Below are positions 2,423 to 39,907 of a DNA stretch of 39,907 nucleotides, piece by piece. A program made the translations under genes and the position numbers. Positions within the stretch are counted from its first letter, which is position 1; each line of letters begins with the position of its first letter. The notes beneath the pieces were generated by a model. That model was not told where the DNA came from, searched no databases, and saw only the letters and a list, made by a program, of their open reading frames with translations. Origin of the DNA: an uncultured Pseudomonadota bacterium (GTDB lineage Bacteria; Pseudomonadota; Gammaproteobacteria; Steroidobacterales; Steroidobacteraceae); assembly GCA_903908265.1 (NCBI GenBank), contig CAIVRI010000064.1, forward strand, positions 1 through 39,907. Direction: 5' to 3'.

Positions 2423-4852
2423 CTAATGGGCCGGGCGTGGCTCGTGCCGCAGCGCATCCGTCGTCTCCGGCGCGCCGTCCGCATCGCGCACGAGCCCGAT
2501 CAGCGGCGACCGCTCCAGCGCCAGATCCAGCACTTCGTCAAACCACTTCACTGGGTGGATGGCGAGCTTGTCCTTAATGTTCGCCGGAATTTCAGCCAGG
2601 TCTTTCTCGTTCTCGGAGGGAATCAAGACCGTGGTAATGCCGCCGCGGTGCGCTGCCAGCAATTTTTCCTTGAGGCCGCCGATCGGCAACACCTCACCAC
2701 GCAGCGTGATCTCGCCGGTCATCGCCACATCCGCTCGCACCGGGATCTTGGTAAAAGCCGACACCAGCGCGGTCGCCATGGCCGCGCCAGCCGACGGGCC
2801 GTCCTTGGGCGTCGCGCCCTCGGGTACGTGCACGTGCACATCGCCTTTCTGGTGGAAATCCGGCTCGAGGCCAAACAGCGTGGCGCGGCTACGCACCACC
2901 GTCATGGCGGCCTGAATGGATTCTTGCATCACCTCACCCAACTGGCCGGTGTACTGCAATTTACCCTTGCCCGGCACCACGGCCGCTTCGATCGTGAGCA
3001 GGTCGCCGCCCACTTCAGTCCAGGCCAAACCGGTGACCTGCCCGATCCGGTTGGACTCGTCGGCGCGGCCATAGCGGAAGCGTTCCACGCCCAAATAATC
3101 ACCGAGATTCTCGCCCCCCACACGGATCTGTTTGTCCGCCGGATGGAGCAACAGATGTTTGACCGCCTTGCGGCAAATCTTGGAGACCTCGCGCTCCAGG
3201 TTACGCACGCCCGCCTCGCGCGTGTAGTGCCGCACAATGCCCGTGAGCGCCTCGTCCGCAACCGTTAACTCACCGGCCGCCAGACCATTGGCCTTGGATT
3301 GCTTGGGCACCAAGTAACGGCGCGCGATGTTGATCTTCTCGTCTTCGGTGTAGCCCGCCAGACGAATGACTTCCATACGATCCAGCAGTGCGGCGGGGAT
3401 ATTCAGGGTATTGGCCGTACAGACGAACATCACCTCAGACAGATCAAAGTCGACCTCCAGATAATGATCCGCGAAGGTCGCGTTTTGCTCGGGATCCAAG
3501 ACTTCCAGCAAGGCCGAGGACGGGTCACCCCGAAAATCCATCGACATCTTGTCGACCTCATCCAAGAGGAATAAGGGATTGCGCACGCCGGTACGCGCCA
3601 TGCTCTGGATGATCTTGCCGGGCATCGAACCGATGTAGGTGCGCCGGTGACCGCGAATTTCGGCTTCGTCGCGCACGCCACCCAGGCTCATGCGAATGAA
3701 CTCTCGGTTGGTCGCCTTGGCAATGGACTGGCCCAAGGACGTCTTACCCACACCCGGTGGCCCGACCAAACAAAGAATCGGACCCTTCAACGCTTTGACC
3801 CGTTGCTGCACCGCGAGAAACTCGACAATGCGTTCCTTGACCTTATCGAGGCCATAATGGTCCGCGTCCAGTACCGACTGCGCGTGGGCAATATCGGCAC
3901 GCACTTTGGAACGTTTCTTCCACGGCGCCTTAACCAGCCAATCGATGTAATTGCGCACGACGGTCGCCTCAGCGCTCATCGGGCTCATCATCTTGAGTTT
4001 GTTGAGTTCCGCGGTGGCCTTCTCACGCACTTCCTTGGGCATGCCCGCGGCCTTGATGCGCTTCTCGATCTCGCCGTGCTCATTCGGCGCTTCCTCGAGC
4101 TCGCCGAGTTCCTTCTGAATGGCCTTCATCTGCTCGTTCAGGTAGTACTCGCGCTGGCTCTTTTCCATCTGCTGCTTGACCCGACCGCGAATCCGTTTTT
4201 CGATCTGCAAGCCTTCCATTTCGCCTTCGATCTGCCCCAGCACTTGCTCGAGCCGCGCGCGAACGCCCAAAATCTCCAGAATCTTTTGTTTCTCTGACAA
4301 CTTCAGCGCCATGTGCGCCGACACGGTATCCGCCAACCGACCCGGCTGATCGATGCCGGCCAACGAGGTCAAGACCTCCGGCGGAATCTTCTTGTTGAGC
4401 TTCACATAGTGTTCGAACTGCGTGAGTACACTGCGCGTCAGCACCTCCGTCTCGCGCGCATTGGTATCGTCCTCATCGACTAGGACGTCGACGAAGGCCG
4501 CAAAAAAATCGGCGGTCACCAGACGATCGATCCGCGCGCGGGAGACGCCCTCCACGAGCACCTTGACCGTGCCATCCGGGAGCTTGACCAATTGCAGGAT
4601 CGTCGCGAGCGTCCCGACCCGATACAGGTCGTCCACCTTCGGCTCATCGACATCAGCGGCTTTCTGCGCCAGGAGCAAGATCTGTTTGTCGGCGCGCATG
4701 GCCTGATCGAGCGCCATGATGGACTTGTCCCGCCCTACGAACAGCGGAATCACCATATGCGGATAGACGACGACGTCTCGTAGCGGCAGCACCGGCACGG
4801 GACCCGGATTGGACTCGCCTACGACTTCAATGTGCTCAGGGGTATCGGTCAC
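2423..4852 (-). CDS. lon: ATP-dependent protease Lon (LonA type)
   Basis: Cytoplasmic ATP-dependent serine protease that degrades misfolded and regulatory proteins. At 809 residues it has the standard LonA layout: N-terminal substrate domain (about 18-205), a coiled-coil/helical part, an AAA+ module with Walker A GPPGVGKT (364-371) and Walker [10 protein letters not shown] (427-435), and a protease domain with catalytic Ser687 in KDGPSAGAA and Lys730 in GGLKEK, the same 43-residue spacing as in E. coli Lon. The start is GTG with GAGGA 6 bases upstream. Lon normally follows clpX directly; here the H-NS-like gene precedes it and clpX is about 6.5 kb away. A heat-shock-like promoter candidate lies at 4925-4951. 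The family assignment is secure. Confidence 0.98.
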
Positions 4853-4924
4853 GTCGATTCCTCAAGGTTCCAGGTGCGCATCTAAGCGCTCAGTATGAAC
4901 ATTCGACCACTGCAGGATACCTCT

Positions 4925-4951
4925 GTGGGGGCGCAAGCGCCTGCGTACAAG
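4925..4951 (-). promoter_or_regulatory. Candidate sigma-32 (heat-shock) promoter of lon
   Basis: On the minus strand CTTGTA (4946-4951) and CCCCAC (4925-4930) are 15 bp apart, resembling the sigma-32 pattern CTTGAA-N13-17-CCCCAT. It lies just beyond the terminator of the upstream H-NS-like gene and about 70 bases before the lon start, which is where a lon promoter would be needed. The match is partial; lon heat-shock control is known in other proteobacteria but is inferred here. Confidence 0.35.
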
Positions 4952-4960
4952 ACTTAAGGT

Positions 4961-5000
4961 GCCAAAAAGACGGGGCTGGGATCGGTCGATCCCAGCCCCC
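4961..5000 (-). terminator. Rho-independent terminator of the H-NS-like gene
   Basis: Perfect 12-bp stem GGGGCTGGGATC (4972-4983) / GATCCCAGCCCC (4988-4999) around a 4-base loop. On the minus strand it is followed by GTCTTTTTGG, giving a five-T tract. It sits 28 bases beyond the stop codon and separates this gene from lon. Confidence 0.85.
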
Positions 5001-5027
5001 GCTCGATCGCGCGCCAACGGCCGGCGC

Positions 5028-5438
5028 TTAAATCTTGAACGACGCCGCCGACTGGCCGGCATCAACCGCCGCCTTCAGCCATTTGGGCGTCTTGCCACGG
5101 CCACTCCACGTTTCGCCATTGGGGCCACGGAACTTGATCGGGGCCGGCTTGCGCACGCCCGATTTCGCCGCCTTCGCTTTCACCGTCTTCTTGCCGGTGA
5201 CGGCCTTCGCTTTGCGACCCCGCGGGCCCTTGGCCTTGATTTTGCCCTTGGCCTTCCCCTTGGACGACCCCTTCGCCGCCATTTTCATCGCCGCGCGCAC
5301 TTGCGCCAGCGTGATTCCAAACGCGCGCAAGGTGGCCACGATCTCCGCCAGCGTGCGATCGAATTCCTTGGCGCGCAATTCCTGCGCCTGCACGGTTAGC
5401 GACTCGATTTCATTCTGCAGTTCAACCAGTGATTTCAT
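5028..5438 (-). CDS. H-NS-family nucleoid protein with a histone H1-like linker
   Basis: Small (136 aa) DNA-binding protein. Residues 1-50 are the coiled-coil oligomerisation region of the H-NS family. Residues 103-121 hold the C-terminal core ending WSGRGKTPKWL, the AT-hook-like loop that reads AT-rich minor groove. Between them about 50 residues (52-100) are almost wholly Lys, Ala and Gly with a few Arg, Pro and Val, like the tails of bacterial histone H1 mimics. ATG 5438 is chosen; an in-frame TTG lies at 5456. The upstream DNA is strongly AT-rich, which suits self-silencing. It occupies the neighbourhood where many gammaproteobacteria carry hupB, on the other side of lon. Expected role: global silencing of AT-rich or foreign DNA (inferred). 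Confidence 0.85.
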   Translation of the reverse strand: MKSLVELQNEIESLTVQAQELRAKEFDRTLAEIVATLRAFGITLAQVRAAMKMAAKGSSKGKAKGKIKAKGPRGRKAKAVTGKKTVKAKAAKSGVRKPAPIKFRGPNGETWSGRGKTPKWLKAAVDAGQSAASFKI

Positions 5439-30167: not shown

Positions 30168-30824
30168 CTACAGCGCCCCGGCGACCAGATCTACTCGCTC
30201 CTCCACACGCCGGATGATTTCGTCCAGTCCGTGTCCGGTCTTGAGATTCGTGAACACGAAGGGCCGATCGGGACGCATTTTTTTCGCATCACGATCCATG
30301 ACCTCCAGTGAAGCACCCACGTAAGGGGCGAGATCGATTTTATTGATCACGAGTAAATCGGAACGGGTGATCCCGGGCCCGCCTTTGCGCGGAATCTTGT
30401 CGCCCGCGGCCACATCAATCACATAGATCGTAAAGTCCGACAGTTCCGGACTAAAGGTCGCGGCCAAATTATCGCCACCCGACTCCACGAAGACGATTTC
30501 CAAATCCCCGAAGCGTCGCGCCAAACGATCCACCGCCTCGAGATTGATGGAGGCGTCCTCACGAATGGCCGTATGCGGACAGCCGCCGGTCTCCACGCCA
30601 ATGATCCGCTCCGGCGCTAGCGCCTCATGCCGGACGAGAAACTGCGCATCCTCTTCGGTATAAATATCGTTGGTGACAACCGCGATGCGGCGCCGCGCGC
30701 GCAACGCGCGACACAGCGACAGCGTCAGCGCCGTCTTACCGGAGCCCACCGGACCGCCAATGCCGACCCGCAAAGGGCTGGAATACGTATTAGGAACGGA
30801 AGAGTCGTGTGTGTTGGTGTTCAT
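30168..30824 (-). CDS. ureG: Urease accessory GTPase UreG
   Basis: 218 residues. P-loop GPVGSGKT, conserved [21 protein letters not shown] (nickel-binding Cys-Pro-His) and [10 protein letters not shown]. It hydrolyses GTP to drive nickel insertion into urease with UreD, UreF and UreE. Its ATG lies 35 bases inside the 3' end of ureF, a longer overlap than elsewhere in the operon; the 18 extra N-terminal residues before PLRVGIGG are polar and poorly conserved, so a later start is possible. Last gene of ureDABCEFG. Confidence 0.96.
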
Positions 30825-31473
30825 GTTGCATGCTGGCCATCACCTGGCCGGGTAGGAAGTTAGTGATTTCATCGAGTGGACAGGCGATCGCCGCACACGC
30901 ATGCGCCGCGAGCGTCTGACCGAGTTGTGTGAGTAAGCGTTGCCCTGCCGTCTGCCCAAGGGGCACGGTCTTGACGGCCGCAAGCACCAAGTTCTCTAGC
31001 GCCGCATAGAGATAGCCGACCAGCGCGGTCTCGACCGGCACCGCGCGCGCGGCGGCCGCTACCGCCCAGGCAACAGGGTAGCTCAGCCCCTCGCCCCGTT
31101 CGAGGGCCGCCAGTTGCGCCAGCACCGCGGGCGCGATCGGCACGGTGGAGCCTATCAATAGGCGCATCGACCGCCCCATCTGTACGGTCTCTGCACGCAA
31201 CTCGCGTGTCTCCCGACTCGCAAGAAAGCGACGATTAATACGCGTGAGCGCCACCACATCGCCACTCTCTAATGCCTCTAGTGTGCGCGCGACTACCACC
31301 GCTTCCGTGCAGGCGACACCGTCCTCCAGCACCGTTGCGATCCAGGCATGGGCCGCTGCTTCATCACGCACCCAGCCGGCCTCGACCGCCGTTTCCAAGC
31401 CTTGGGAATACGAGAATGCGCCGACCGGCAAGGTCGCGCTGGTTAACTGCAGCAGGGCCGCCAGCGCACTCAT
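30790..31473 (-). CDS. ureF: Urease accessory protein UreF
   Basis: 227 residues, all-helical. Family motifs [16 protein letters not shown] near the N-terminus and [22 protein letters not shown] at the C-terminus. Acts in the UreD-UreF-UreG complex that delivers nickel to the apo-urease. Overlaps ureE by 4 bases (ATGA) and ureG by 35. Confidence 0.95.
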
Positions 31474-31973
31474 ACCGAACGATACTCGTGCAGTACCGGG
31501 GCCAGCGCGTGACCCCCACCGGCATGGGCGTGATCGTGCCCATACGCGCCGCCTTCGGGCTCGAAGGCACCCACGAGTGCGTACGGTTGCAGACCGAGAC
31601 CCTCCAACAGTCGCCCGAGCACAGGGTCGTGTGCGATCCGAATCCTCCCTGCAGCGATCTCCACCGCGACGTGGCGGTTGCCCAGATGATAGGCCGCGCG
31701 GGCTAATAACAACGGGTCATCCGATGTCACTTCCAGCAGCGATTCGCGCGCCGCCAACACCGCCACCACCAGACCCGAAGCCGTTACCCAGTGCTCTGCG
31801 CCCCGCATCACGCTGCCGCGCGGCACCGCAACGACGAGGGGGCGGCCGTCCTCGAGCGCGGTCACATACCGGGTCCGCACCCGCTGCTCAAAGGACAGTA
31901 CTACCACGGCACTGGGTTCCCCAGTCCCGGTGGCACGGCCGATCAAGCGCTCTGGCGTTGCGGCGTCCATCAA
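31470..31973 (-). CDS. ureE: Urease nickel metallochaperone UreE
   Basis: 167 residues: N-terminal peptide-binding domain, central metal-binding domain with the GNRHVAVEI motif, and a modest His-rich tail ([12 protein letters not shown]) that would store or bind nickel. Translation is coupled to ureC upstream and ureF downstream, each by an ATGA overlap. Confidence 0.94.
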
Positions 31974-33673
31974 AAAAGAAAGTAACGTTGACTGAGCGGC
32001 AACTCGACCGCCGGTTCACACTCGAGCGTCACGCCGTCGGCCCGCACCACGTAGGTTTCCGGATCCACCTCGATCACCGGCATCGCATCGTTGTGGATCA
32101 TATCGGCCTTGGTGATCGTACGCGTTCCAGACACCGCGACCAACGGTTTGCCAAGTCCCAGCGCCGCCACCGTGCCTTTCTCGAGCGCCGCTTGGGATAC
32201 GAAGGTCACTGCAGTACGCAGCCCCTGACCGAAGGCGGCAAACATCGGCCGATAGTGGACCGGTTGCGGTGTGGGGATCGAGGCGTTCGGGTCCCCCATG
32301 GGCGCCAGCGCGATCATGCCGCCTTTCAACACCAACGCGGGCTTCGCCCCGAAAAACGCCGGCTTCCACAGTACCAGGTCTGCCATTTTCCCCGGCTCCA
32401 CCGAGCCGACCACCTGCGCAATACCATGTGTGATGGCAGGATTGATCGTGTACTTGGCCACGTACCGTTTCACGCGCGCATTGTCGGCGCGCGCGCAATC
32501 GCCCGGAAGACTGCCGCGCTGCTGTTTCATTTTGTGCGCGGTCTGCCAGGTGCGGATCACCACTTCGCCAACCCGCCCCATCGCCTGCGAGTCTGAGGAC
32601 ATCATCGAGAACACGCCCAAGTCATGCAAAATATCTTCCGCCGCGATCGTTTCACGCCGGATACGCGACTCGGCAAAAGCGACGTCCTCGGCCAGCGCGG
32701 CATCGAGATGGTGGCAAACCATCAACATGTCCAAATGTTCGTCCACCGTATTGATGGTGTACGGTCGTGTCGGATTTGTGGAGCTGGGCAATACATTGGG
32801 CAGCGAGGCTGCTCGGATAATATCCGGGGCATGGCCACCACCGGCGCCTTCGGTGTGAAAGGTATGGATCGTGCGACCAGCGATCGCGGCGAGCGTCGTC
32901 TCGACGAACCCGGATTCGTTCAAGGTGTCGGTATGAATGGCGACCTGCACATCCATCGCATCCGCCACGCGCAAGCAAGTATCAATCGCCTTGGGCGTCG
33001 TGCCCCAGTCCTCATGCAACTTGAGGCCGATGGCGCCCGCTTCCACCTGCTCAATTAATGGCGCGGCGGTACTGGCGTTGCCCTTGCCAAGAAAACCGAG
33101 GTTCATCGGGAACGCTTCTGCCGCACCGAGCATGCGCGCCAGATGCCAGGGTCCCGGTGTACAGGTCGTAGCGGCCGTGCCGGCCGCAGGCCCCGTCCCA
33201 CCGCCCAGCATGGTCGTCACGCCCGAGGCCAGCGCGTCATCGATCTGCTGGGGACAGATGAAATGTATGTGCGAATCCACCCCACCCGCGGTCACGATGA
33301 ACCCTTCGCCCGCGATGATTTCCGTGCCCGCCCCAATGGGAATATCCACGCCATCCTGCACATCCGGATTGCCGGCCTTACCCACGCGCCAGATATAGCC
33401 GTCCTTGAGGCCAATATCGGCTTTCACAATGCCCCAATAATCGACGATGACCGCATTGGTAATCACGGTGTCCGCCACCTGCGCCGAACCTAATTGGCTC
33501 TGCCCCATGCCGTCACGGATCACCTTGCCGCCACCGAACTTCACTTCCTCACCGTACACGGTACGATCGTCTTCGATCGCAATCCACAACGCGGTATCGG
33601 CCAGGCGAATGCGATCACCGGTGGTAGGCCCATACATTTCAGCGTAGGCACGCCGACTGATTTGCACCGCCAT
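31970..33673 (-). CDS. ureC: Urease alpha subunit
   Basis: 567 residues, the normal length. Catalytic subunit splitting urea to ammonia and carbamate. Nickel ligands are present: the HIH pair in [14 protein letters not shown], the Lys to be carbamylated in GLKLHEDWG, downstream His residues ([19 protein letters not shown]), and Asp in [10 protein letters not shown]. The mobile flap [22 protein letters not shown] carries the conserved Cys and His. The start overlaps the ureB stop by one base (TGATG). Confidence 0.98.
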
Positions 33674-33987
33674 CAGAGATCCCCTTCGACACGACCGGCA
33701 AAGCCATAGACGCGGCGCAGGCCGCCGTAGGCCACTAAGCGCACCGTGCGACTCTGGCCCGGCTCGAAGCGCACTGCCGTGCCGGCTGCCACATCCAGAC
33801 GCATGCCGCGCGCGCGCGCACGGTCAAACACCAACGCCGCGTTGGTCTCGGCAAAATGGTAGTGCGAGCCGATCTGAATCGGTCGATCGCCGGTATTTTT
33901 GACTTCCAACATCGCCGTCGGCCGGCCTACATTTAATGCAATCTCGCCCGCTAGGGTTTCAATTTCGCCCGGTCGCATACGCAGCAC
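33673..33987 (-). CDS. ureB: Urease beta subunit
   Basis: 104 residues. Structural subunit with the family core [16 protein letters not shown] and [17 protein letters not shown]. Separate from ureA, as in most bacteria other than Helicobacter. It lies 1 bp from ureA and overlaps ureC by one base. Confidence 0.97.
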
Positions 33988-33988
33988 C

Positions 33989-34291
33989 TCAGAGGATCGG
34001 GTCGTGTACGGTCACGAGCTTCGTGCCGTCAGGGAACGTCGCTTCAACCTGAATGTCGGGAATCATCTCCGCGACGCCATCCATCACATCGGCCCGACTC
34101 AAGATCGTGCGACCGAAATGCATCAGTTGCGCGACGGTCTGCCCATCGCGCGCGCCCTCCAGAATCGCGGCGCTGATCAGCGCGATCGCCTCGGGATAAT
34201 TCAAACGCAACCCACGGGCCCGGCGCCGCTCGGCCACGAGGGCTGCAGTGAAGAGCAGCAGTTTGTCCTTCTCGCGGGGCGTCAATTCCAT
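33989..34291 (-). CDS. ureA: Urease gamma subunit
   Basis: 100 residues. [14 protein letters not shown] at the start, [12 protein letters not shown] and [13 protein letters not shown] are diagnostic. GGAGAG lies about 7 bases before the ATG. First structural gene of the trimeric enzyme unit, 20 bp after ureD. Confidence 0.98.
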
Positions 34292-34311
34292 AATGTTCTC
34301 TCCAGCACCTT

Positions 34312-35160
34312 TTAAACAGCCCAGATACGCGGCCGGGCGGCCACTCTATCCAACATTGCCGGACGCAGATGCTCCCACAGCGTCGCAAACCACTCGTGCG
34401 CCGCTTCGGTCGAATGACCGCGGTAGCGTGCGCACAAGACCTCGGGTAACTGCGTCAAGCCCCCTATCCCCTCGCGCACCGGCACCGCACGACACGCCGC
34501 CAACAGTGCTGCGGACGGCGCTGGACCCACGATCAGCAGCGTACCGAACACCGGCGCACCGGCCAACGCGGCTGCCGCTGCCAGCAGCGAGGATCCGCCA
34601 CGCAGCACAGCGCGCTCGTACAGCACCTCACGGCCCGCGATGGCCAACGCCAAGCGCAATTCCAGGCGCCCCCGCTCAAAGCGCTCCCCCGCGTGCGTGC
34701 GACCCAAGCACCAGACGTCCCACGCGACCAAGCGTGCCTGCGCGGACAACGCAATTAGCAACTCCGCCCGGGCGATCGCACCGTCATAAACGATCGCTTC
34801 GCGTGGCAAGAACTCCAACGCACCACCGTCGGCTACCACCAATCGCGTTCGACTGGTCGACTGTGCACCGAGTGATCGGTACCACTTGGACGCGCCCGGC
34901 GTAGTGATCAGTGCCGCCGCCCCGGCACCGACCTCCACCTCCAACGATAACGAGTCGCCACCTACCAATCCAGACGGTGGATGCAGCACAATCGCATGAC
35001 AGGGGCCGTCCTCCTCGGGATACAAGGCTTTCTGCACCAACAGAGGGCCGCAGTGGCAACGACGCACCAGTTCAGTGCGCGCCGCACGCCGCGCAAATTC
35101 CAGCTCCAAGCGGGCGGTCCAGCCCGCCGCAGCGACAGGTTCTGTGTACACCGATGACAT
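34312..35160 (-). CDS. ureD: Urease accessory protein UreD
   Basis: 282 residues from ATG 35160; an in-frame GTG at 35175 would add five. Recognisable by [24 protein letters not shown] and [14 protein letters not shown]. It binds apo-urease and recruits UreF and UreG. First gene of the operon; transcribed divergently from the outer-membrane protein gene, with a 141-bp region between. No urea or nickel transporter gene is attached. Confidence 0.95.
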
Positions 35161-35301
35161 CCGGCGAGGGTACACGCCCCGACGCGTCGCTGCCGACGTC
35201 CCTGCGGGTTTTTTCCCAACCGAAGTGGCACCCTGCAGGCGGCACTACAGCGCATGCCGACCACTGTGCGAGAATGATCTTTTTATCTAGGAGTGGGTTC
35301 G

Positions 35302-38424: not shown

Positions 38425-39907
38425 CTAGCGATGGTGCAGCCAGTTCGGATACCAGACCTCGCGGCGACCCCAATACTGGCGTAACGCACCTACCAAGAGA
38501 CCCGTGGTCACCAAACCCACTGTGACCAGCCACCGGTTGTGTTCGAAGTGATTCGAGAACACCAAAAAAGCCACCAGCCAGACACCCCCGACGATGGCCG
38601 CTTCGTCAAACAACTTGGCTCGAAAGGACCGCGGCTCTCGGCCCGTTAGAATGTCGCGCAACACGCCACCGCCAGAGCAGGTCAGCCATGCACAGAACGG
38701 CGCCCATAGCCAGGGCAATCCCATGGCGAGCGGCGCCACCGCTCCCAAGACCGACAGCGCCGCATAACCGACGGTCTCGGCGGTGCGCTTCGTGACTTGG
38801 AATGCGGGACTGGCCGTTTTTTCCGAGAGCAGCGCCGCCCACAGGCTGGCCATCAGCACCACCGCCAGCACGCCGATCGGCAGGCCCGGACTGGCCAACC
38901 ACGGAAACGGCAAGCGATCGCCCCCAAGGAGGAGATCCCGCAACACACCACCACCCATACAACTGAGGGCTCCCAACGCGATCCTGCCGATCAAATTGTA
39001 GCCTGCCTCAATGCCCATCAGCCCGCCTGCAAACGCGAAGATCCAGATGCCCGCGTAGACGAACACCAGAAAAAGCGTCGATCCGACCGTCATGCGCAGG
39101 TATTGCTGTGTTGCGTCGGTCAACACAGTGGCCGACTGTTCGCTCGCCCTAAGCTGGCGTATCACCGAGTGCGTCCAAAGCGGCGAACGCTTGACGCGCA
39201 CGCTCTGCGAATAGGGCAGCGCAGCTACCATCCTATCGTAGGCATCAATATCTAATACGCCGAAGTTGTCGAAATTATCTGGCAGCAATGGAATGACACT
39301 GTCGAGCATCGCTTTTGGGAAGCTGGAATTTTTTGACGGATCACTGCCAAACAGACGAACGATATTGGAGGTAGGCACAGGCTCTGCCTTCGCATAAGCC
39401 CATCCGCGTTTCACGGCGCGCAATAATTTCACGAGCGCATTCCGGAACTCTGGAGACTCCAGCGATTGCTCACGAACGTAAAGACCTTCTTCGACATGCG
39501 CAAGGCCATAGTCCCCCGGTGAAAAGGTCACTAGGTCCATCTCCGGCACGCCGGCATCGACGACCCACCAAGGCTCGTTATAACTGACACCCGAAATACA
39601 CGGCACCGTTCCATCCACCAAGTCTTCGCCATGCGCGGATCGCTTCACCCACGTGACGCCCGCAGCGTCCACGCCGGCAGCGCGCAGCATCGCGGACACA
39701 GTGACTCGATCGCCAGGCCAGCTGATGCCCACTTTTTTACCAGCAACATCCGCGAGCGAATGAATACCGGCACTGAATCGGCAGATCAACTGCTGCCCGG
39801 ACCCTGAGAAAATTTGCGCGACATTGATCAGACGGGCACCCTTACTGTCGGCTGCCATCGCGTTATCGAGCCACGACAGCGCCACCTCCACCTCACCACG
39901 CTGTAAA
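38425..39907 (-). CDS. Substrate-binding domain fused to a TRIC/UPF0126 membrane domain (5' end missing)
   Basis: The frame is open through the right edge; 493 complete codons are visible. The first 270 or so residues are an NMT1/THI5-like periplasmic binding domain lacking its N-terminus (GEVEVALSWLDNAMAA, LADVAGKKVGISWPGD, VSYNEPWW). Then follow about seven membrane helices forming the two UPF0126 repeats, each with the glycine motif: SCMGGGVLRDLLLG and CSGGGVLRDILTGREP. TRIC/UPF0126 proteins are trimeric channels or amino acid (glycine) transporters. The binding domain precedes a membrane helix, so it should sit in the periplasm above the channel. It lies 131 bp upstream of the M28 stop region, on the same strand as that gene. 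Function unproven; ligand-controlled transport is the natural guess. Confidence 0.85.
   Translation of the reverse strand, partial: LQRGEVEVALSWLDNAMAADSKGARLINVAQIFSGSGQQLICRFSAGIHSLADVAGKKVGISWPGDRVTVSAMLRAAGVDAAGVTWVKRSAHGEDLVDGTVPCISGVSYNEPWWVVDAGVPEMDLVTFSPGDYGLAHVEEGLYVREQSLESPEFRNALVKLLRAVKRGWAYAKAEPVPTSNIVRLFGSDPSKNSSFPKAMLDSVIPLLPDNFDNFGVLDIDAYDRMVAALPYSQSVRVKRSPLWTHSVIRQLRASEQSATVLTDATQQYLRMTVGSTLFLVFVYAGIWIFAFAGGLMGIEAGYNLIGRIALGALSCMGGGVLRDLLLGGDRLPFPWLASPGLPIGVLAVVLMASLWAALLSEKTASPAFQVTKRTAETVGYAALSVLGAVAPLAMGLPWLWAPFCAWLTCSGGGVLRDILTGREPRSFRAKLFDEAAIVGGVWLVAFLVFSNHFEHNRWLVTVGLVTTGLLVGALRQYWGRREVWYPNWLHHR

Follow-up and report, generated by a model that had tools for sequence, protein, structure and literature searches.

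A solute-binding domain fused to a TRIC/UPF0126 domain: a separate protein lineage with two binding-domain types as a candidate for ligand-controlled pores

Does the gene at the end of the window (the whole stretch of 39,907 nucleotides analyzed here, from an uncultured bacterium of the Steroidobacteraceae) truly join a solute-binding protein (SBP) to a TRIC channel domain and, if so, what might the former do to the latter? The limits of the gene and its features are compiled in Table 1. Since the window is identical with the entire contig C64 of its genome (3.4 Mb, 174 contigs), the missing 5' end, the retrieval of which the first-pass annotation had suggested, is truly absent from the assembly; the complete relatives supply the approximately 83 absent residues and a signal-peptide-like hydrophobic N-terminal segment. 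In the remaining frame, two Pfam families and no others exceeded their cut-offs: NMT1 (PF09084) at residues 2-176 (78.4 bits versus a cut-off of 20.5, E = 9.8e-22) and Gly_transporter/UPF0126 (PF03458) in two stretches of the C-terminal half (73.6 bits versus 23.5, E = 1.2e-20), with both repeats over the curated cut-off, while NCBIfam gave no model at cut-off for the seven proteins scanned. In the single-chain AF2 model of an orthologue, the two-lobed SBP fold and the TRIC fold were both well predicted, and the seven transmembrane helices, placed by hand in the window protein, were also present; a first model, calculated from an alignment without TRIC-only rows, had yielded a good SBP part and a poor TRIC part, with no TRIC entry among the best 50 fold matches. 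The first-pass annotation had described an NMT1 domain running in one open frame into a seven-helix TRIC/UPF0126 domain with both GGGVLRD repeats intact, and is borne out in all three respects.

Table 1. Coordinates of the fusion gene, its domains and the residues discussed in the text (positions in the window).
Feature	Coordinates	Strand	Remarks
SBP-TRIC fusion gene	38425..39906	-	493 codons + stop; 5' end lost at contig end
NMT1/THI5-type solute-binding domain	39148..39906	-	residues 1-253; ~83 N-terminal residues absent; limits from alignment to orthologue AF2 model
Linker helix ahead of M1	39085..39117	-	residues 264-274; mapped by alignment from helix 347-357 of orthologue AF2 model
TRIC/UPF0126 domain	38428..39078	-	residues 277-493; seven transmembrane helices
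F279, start of M1	39070..39072	-	28/28 lineage vs 1/37 stand-alone
First GGGVLRD motif	38935..38955	-	residues 318-324, in M2
E377	38776..38778	-	SsTRIC Asp97 position (Tyr153 latch partner)
L384	38755..38757	-	SsTRIC Phe104 position (pore constriction)
W401, P403, A406, periplasmic end of M5	38689..38706	-	lineage signature
Second GGGVLRD motif	38653..38673	-	residues 412-418, in M5; R417, D418 = SsTRIC Arg137, Asp138
F433	38608..38610	-	SsTRIC Tyr153 position (plug)
E435, next to plug	38602..38604	-	27/28 lineage vs 0/37 stand-alone

The fusion is present in other genomes as well. Among the 40 nearest genomes, three (its own included) matched over all 493 residues, with identities of 58% (G004) and 56% (G007), and a three-sequence profile matched over both halves in seven of 396 genomes of the order (again including its own). 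The more distant proteins (G673, G647, G730 and G450; 32-34% identity to the window protein) belong to two additional genera within the family and to one different family; both Pfam domains were found in all seven, that of G450 being cut by its own contig end. Downstream of the fusion, G007 shares with the window genes for an M28-like peptidase and an EamA-like permease (names by reading); one larger gene and a small predicted ORF lie in between. A joining of two genes by an assembly or frameshift artefact, which might be suspected from a gene reaching the contig end and which the first-pass annotation had considered in the form of a sequencing error near 39090, is excluded, because homologues from other genomes are open and colinear across the junction and G007 keeps the downstream neighbors. 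The genes around six fusion loci and in the window were read from the starts of their translations, several of these loci being short or cut. Further neighborhoods, all named by reading of the translations, comprise a minus-strand gene run resembling a urease cluster in the window (30171-35175), an IS4-type-transposase-like gene directly ahead of the fusion in G007 (L005:3368-4465) and, in G730 (L036:1-1362), an acetolactate-decarboxylase-like gene that abuts the fusion start and is preceded by a nucleobase-permease-like gene.

At wider taxonomic range, the genome samples were even draws, in which up to three candidates per genome were scored in the class and phylum, and their counts refer to the stated thresholds and not to population frequencies. 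The window's protein alone was matched across both profile halves in the class sample (369 genomes, E ≤ 1e-15) and in the phylum sample (398 genomes, E ≤ 1e-30). A match to the TRIC half in the phylum search revealed a second fusion type in another class of the same phylum: the protein of genome G884 combines SBP_bac_3 (2.2e-19) with UPF0126 (3.6e-26). Long-frame relatives occurred in four of 76 genomes of its order (G884, G1176, G1188, G1158), and a search of its class (289 genomes, E ≤ 1e-25) with a profile built from 11 fused TRIC halves gave matches in 32 genomes. Among these 32, 12 encode SBP-TRIC fusions (17 proteins including that of G884, one of which, G1388, is NMT1-type), two contain lineage TRICs apparently without an SBP (G1374, G1258), and 18 have matches that resemble stand-alone TRICs as judged by frame length. 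According to Pfam, both domains are present in 8/8 NMT1-type and in 18/19 SBP_bac_3-type fusions, with UPF0126 alone in G1158. A fusion unique to this genome is rejected in view of the relatives in the order and the SBP_bac_3-TRIC fusions in another class.

Several other searches gave null results within their scope. Not one of 72,556 plasmid records covered 80% of the window protein or of the G884 protein, a first scan of genome contigs with a single protein query returned no relative, and viral contigs scanned with the lineage alignment gave no more than a single, weak TRIC match (26%). By reading, the long frames at other TRICs (L006, L010, L013, L066-L070 and L138; 334 to 848 aa) were judged to run over into upstream sequence and were not counted as fusions. 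The fusion is the only protein with a PF03458 match in the window's genome, and no second PF03458 protein was found in any of the seven NMT1-fusion genomes of the order (completeness 84-99%); another one was present in three of the four SBP_bac_3-fusion genomes tested. Paired, adjacent SBP_bac_3-TRIC genes were observed in G1403 (L130), G1085 (L129) and G1057 (L132), the former two sharing a genus code.

The SBP-TRIC proteins constitute a separate lineage with two branches, NMT1 (eight proteins) and SBP_bac_3 (19 proteins). A tree was calculated from 28 lineage and 37 stand-alone TRIC domains, the latter chosen by hand from fetched loci and not at random. One branch (support 97) separated all 28 lineage domains from the others; under the C20 mixture model, support was 100/99 for the lineage branch, 97/87 for the NMT1 branch and 99/99 for the SBP_bac_3 branch including G1374. 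G647 formed a long branch, and three rows were of unusual composition. L010, L013 and L081-L083 were outside the stand-alone set, L138 was outside the lineage set and G1258 (L139) outside the TRIC tree; L137 and L136 were used in place of their shorter copies L123 and L124. The NMT1 domains of the seven order fusions formed one clade (99), rooted on sensor-type NMT1 domains, in an SBP tree without G1388 (the short match L026 was removed from the second SBP tree). The simplest history would be one lineage in which the binding domain was swapped once between two SBP families, with some losses; two independent fusions onto one TRIC lineage may have occurred instead. By reading, G1374 (L131, frame 2929-5052) has a lineage TRIC without an SBP in its frame and G1258 (L139:4587-5336) a 250-residue lineage TRIC gene without an SBP, and in both Met replaces Arg in the first GGG..RD motif; as these two members seem SBP-less, the TRIC part of the lineage can do without its binding domain.

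Besides F279 and E435 (Table 1), three residues at the end of M5 distinguish the lineage from stand-alone TRICs (numbering of the window protein), a contrast that is descriptive because the columns were picked after the alignment was seen: W401 (27/28 versus 0/37, with Tyr in the remaining lineage member), P403 (26/28 versus 1/37) and A406 (27/28 versus 1/37, with Gly in 36 stand-alone proteins). Under the TRIC orientation, F279, W401 and P403 would be located at the periplasmic ends of M1 and M5, i.e. on the side of the binding domain. At residue 304 in the M1-M2 turn (38995-38997), the Asp of all 37 stand-alone TRICs is kept in three and lost in 25 of the 28 lineage proteins.

The two branches differ in the residues that form the cytoplasmic latch. 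In SsTRIC (PMC5401562), Tyr153 of the M5-M6 plug forms a hydrogen bond with Asp97, the pore is constricted by Phe104, and each of the exchanges D97A, F104A, R137A, D138A and Y153A is gain-of-function. On the basis of HMMER alignments, from which the equivalent positions were taken, stand-alone TRICs contain Asp97, Arg137, Asp138 and Tyr153 in 37/37 and Phe104 in 36/37 cases. Asp97, Arg137, Asp138 and Tyr153 are likewise present in all 19 SBP_bac_3-type proteins, with Phe (13), Tyr (5) or Leu (1) at the Phe104 position. Among the prokaryotic TRIC motifs (P..E..YA, DA.XGL, GGXXRD), GGXXRD is kept in the window protein, whereas the Tyr153 and Asp97 positions hold Phe and Glu, respectively. In the eight NMT1-type proteins, the Asp97 position is occupied by Glu in six, the Phe104 position by Leu, Val or Ile in six and the Tyr153 position by Phe (4), Arg (1), Gln (1) or Tyr (2); Arg137 is present in six and Asp138 in all eight. 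The changes at Asp97, Phe104 and Tyr153 coincide in the same six proteins, including that of the window, and G450 and G1388 retain Asp, Phe and Tyr and possess Leu at the Arg137 position. Owing to common descent, the latch changes represent few events, and the Asp to Glu and Tyr to Phe substitutions are mild. The latch has not been lost throughout the lineage, since Asp97 and Tyr153 are retained in 19/19 proteins of the SBP_bac_3 branch. A plug tyrosine turned acidic was considered and rejected, since ungapped alignments give Phe, Arg or Gln at this position and the acidic residue is located two positions further.

On which side of the membrane is the binding domain exposed, and to which solutes? 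The signal-peptide-like segment in the relatives, the N-out topology of TRIC proteins (TRIC papers including PMC5401562) and the distribution of Lys/Arg residues in the loops of the window protein (10 inside versus 2 outside) together argue for a periplasmic and not a cytoplasmic location, as the first-pass annotation had presumed. In fold comparisons, the solved structures closest to the NMT1 domain belong to proteins that bind FAMP, thiamin or PLP; an arginine segment typical of amino-acid binders was detected by pattern match in 16 of the 19 SBP_bac_3 domains of the sister branch, one member of which gave a sub-threshold Lig_chan-Glu_bd match. Judged from the nearest solved folds, the ligand may be thiamin- or pyrimidine-like in the NMT1 type and an amino acid in the SBP_bac_3 branch. 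The stand-alone SBPs scoring highest against the fused NMT1 domains (L043, L044, L045) adjoin a permease-like gene; in L043, BPD_transp_1 lies on one side of the SBP and an amidohydrolase on the other, which might give a clue to the type of ligand.

In the preferred reading, with a rough probability of 0.48, the TRIC pore would be a path for small cations or small solutes under the control of a ligand in the periplasm. The proposal derives from sequence comparison, modeling and analogy: the fusion is conserved, the lineage is separate, the signature would lie where M1 and M5 end on the periplasmic side, and in six of the eight NMT1-type proteins the latch is changed at positions of gain-of-function exchanges in SsTRIC. 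It is weakened by the retention of Asp97 and Tyr153 in the SBP_bac_3 branch, by the mildness and common descent of the changes, by the two apparently SBP-less members and by the link of UPF0126 genes to glycine use. The signal peptide would direct the binding domain to the periplasm, where the short linker helix would tie it to M1 of the pore; in the presumed TRIC trimer, each of the three chains would have its own pore and binding domain. When the binding domain closes on its ligand, it could move M1 by way of the linker and, by touching the Trp/Pro end of M5 that is specific to the lineage, could alter the kink of this gate helix and shift the bundle, so that a periplasmic solute would open or close the path for small cations (or small solutes). 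For SaTRIC, PMC5477506 describes opening as involving larger kinks of TM2 and TM5 and an unlocked C-terminal three-helix bundle. In the NMT1 branch, the altered built-in cytoplasmic plug and latch would fit a control shifted towards the binding domain. Ligand gating by an added binding domain is workable in principle, because a glutamate-binding domain engineered onto a viral K+ channel resulted in a ligand-gated channel (PMC6385376). More tentative still is the wider view that the architecture of ionotropic glutamate receptors arose a second time and independently in these proteins, which would be bacterial ligand-gated TRIC channels with exchangeable binding domains for vitamin precursors or amino acids; the NMT1 branch would have traded part of the plug for periplasmic ligand control.

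The main competitor, which the first-pass annotation had not weighed and which is itself rather unlikely, is a transporter in which the binding domain would hand its solute, an amino acid or a vitamin precursor, to a TRIC-type carrier, in the manner of the fused binding domains of some ABC importers. It would be favored by a role of UPF0126 genes in glycine utilization, and such genes are stated to be important for this in 11 bacteria (review PMC12173739); the Pfam name of PF03458, Glycine transporter, the amino-acid-binder segment of the SBP_bac_3 domains and the occurrence of a fused permease-SBP chain (6h30) among the PDB matches point in the same direction. However, prokaryotic TRICs conduct K+ (TRIC papers including PMC5401562), and for the NMT1 branch a transporter is weakened by the bulk of FAMP, thiamin and PLP relative to the pore of approximately 4 Å (PMC5477506), although its own ligand may differ from those of the nearest folds. 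Clearly less probable is a tether uncoupled from the pore, the binding domain scavenging or concentrating a solute or simply anchoring itself: the apparently SBP-less members G1374 and G1258 would be in keeping with such an arrangement, but the fusion has been kept over deep divergence and with two SBP families, and the lineage-specific residues face the SBP. A sensor, in which the TRIC part would be a non-conducting anchor and the ligand would be signaled to another protein, is improbable to a still greater degree. NMT1 and SBP_bac_3 do serve as input domains of PAS/GGDEF proteins, and their joint occurrence in three of the five sensor proteins scanned (L050, L051, L053; two of the three also with GGDEF in the scanned stretch) indicates that both are portable input domains; yet the fusions retain GGG and Asp in both pore motifs, and Pfam reveals no cytoplasmic output domain in them.

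In a literature search that relied partly on the top titles of longer lists and did not extend to the family survey of 2011, no paper on an SBP-TRIC fusion was found. The abstract of that survey (Silverio & Saier 2011) reportedly mentions fused N- or C-terminal domains. What seems to be new is a single lineage with two binding-domain types, common residues at M1 and M5 and an altered latch in the NMT1 branch. A natural SBP-TRIC fusion kept in two branches provides a candidate stimulus for a TRIC pore, and ligand, pore and gate become testable together.

Among known systems, the closest are the prokaryotic TRIC/UPF0126 proteins (PF03458), e.g. SsTRIC (5wtr/5h35), SaTRIC (5wuc/5wud), CpTRIC (5wuf), RsTRIC (5h36) and YadS of E. 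coli. In comparison with these, the SBP-TRIC proteins possess an additional N-terminal binding domain and the lineage residues at the ends of M1 and M5 and, in the NMT1 branch, changes at the Asp97, Phe104 and Tyr153 positions. They differ from NMT1/THI5-type binding proteins (ThiY, 3ix1; the thiamin-binding 4nmy; yeast THI5) in being fused to a pore, whereas the closest-scoring stand-alone relative scanned (L043) has an ABC permease in its locus. As in the ABC importers with fused binding or regulatory SBP domains (GlnPQ, 6h30; NrtC, 8wm7; CmpC, 9u9z; chains among the matches), an SBP-like domain is joined to transport machinery, but according to Pfam the SBP-TRIC proteins are without an ABC permease or ATPase domain. 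Ionotropic glutamate receptors have a K+-channel-like pore, the helices of which split the ligand domain, and the amino-acid-binding SBP_bac_3 family is akin to their ligand domains. The resemblance to these receptors suggested in the first-pass annotation holds for the layout, in which, as in GluR0, an SBP-type ligand domain outside and a cation pore in the membrane belong to one chain, and the SBP_bac_3 sister branch makes it closer than the NMT1 fusion by itself would. It does not extend to the pore, which is of TRIC fold, C-terminal to an unbroken SBP and, in a presumed trimer, present in each chain; the likeness is therefore one of layout and not of membership. If gating should prove true, the SBP-TRIC proteins would represent a new class of ligand-gated channels, convergent in layout with the glutamate receptors.
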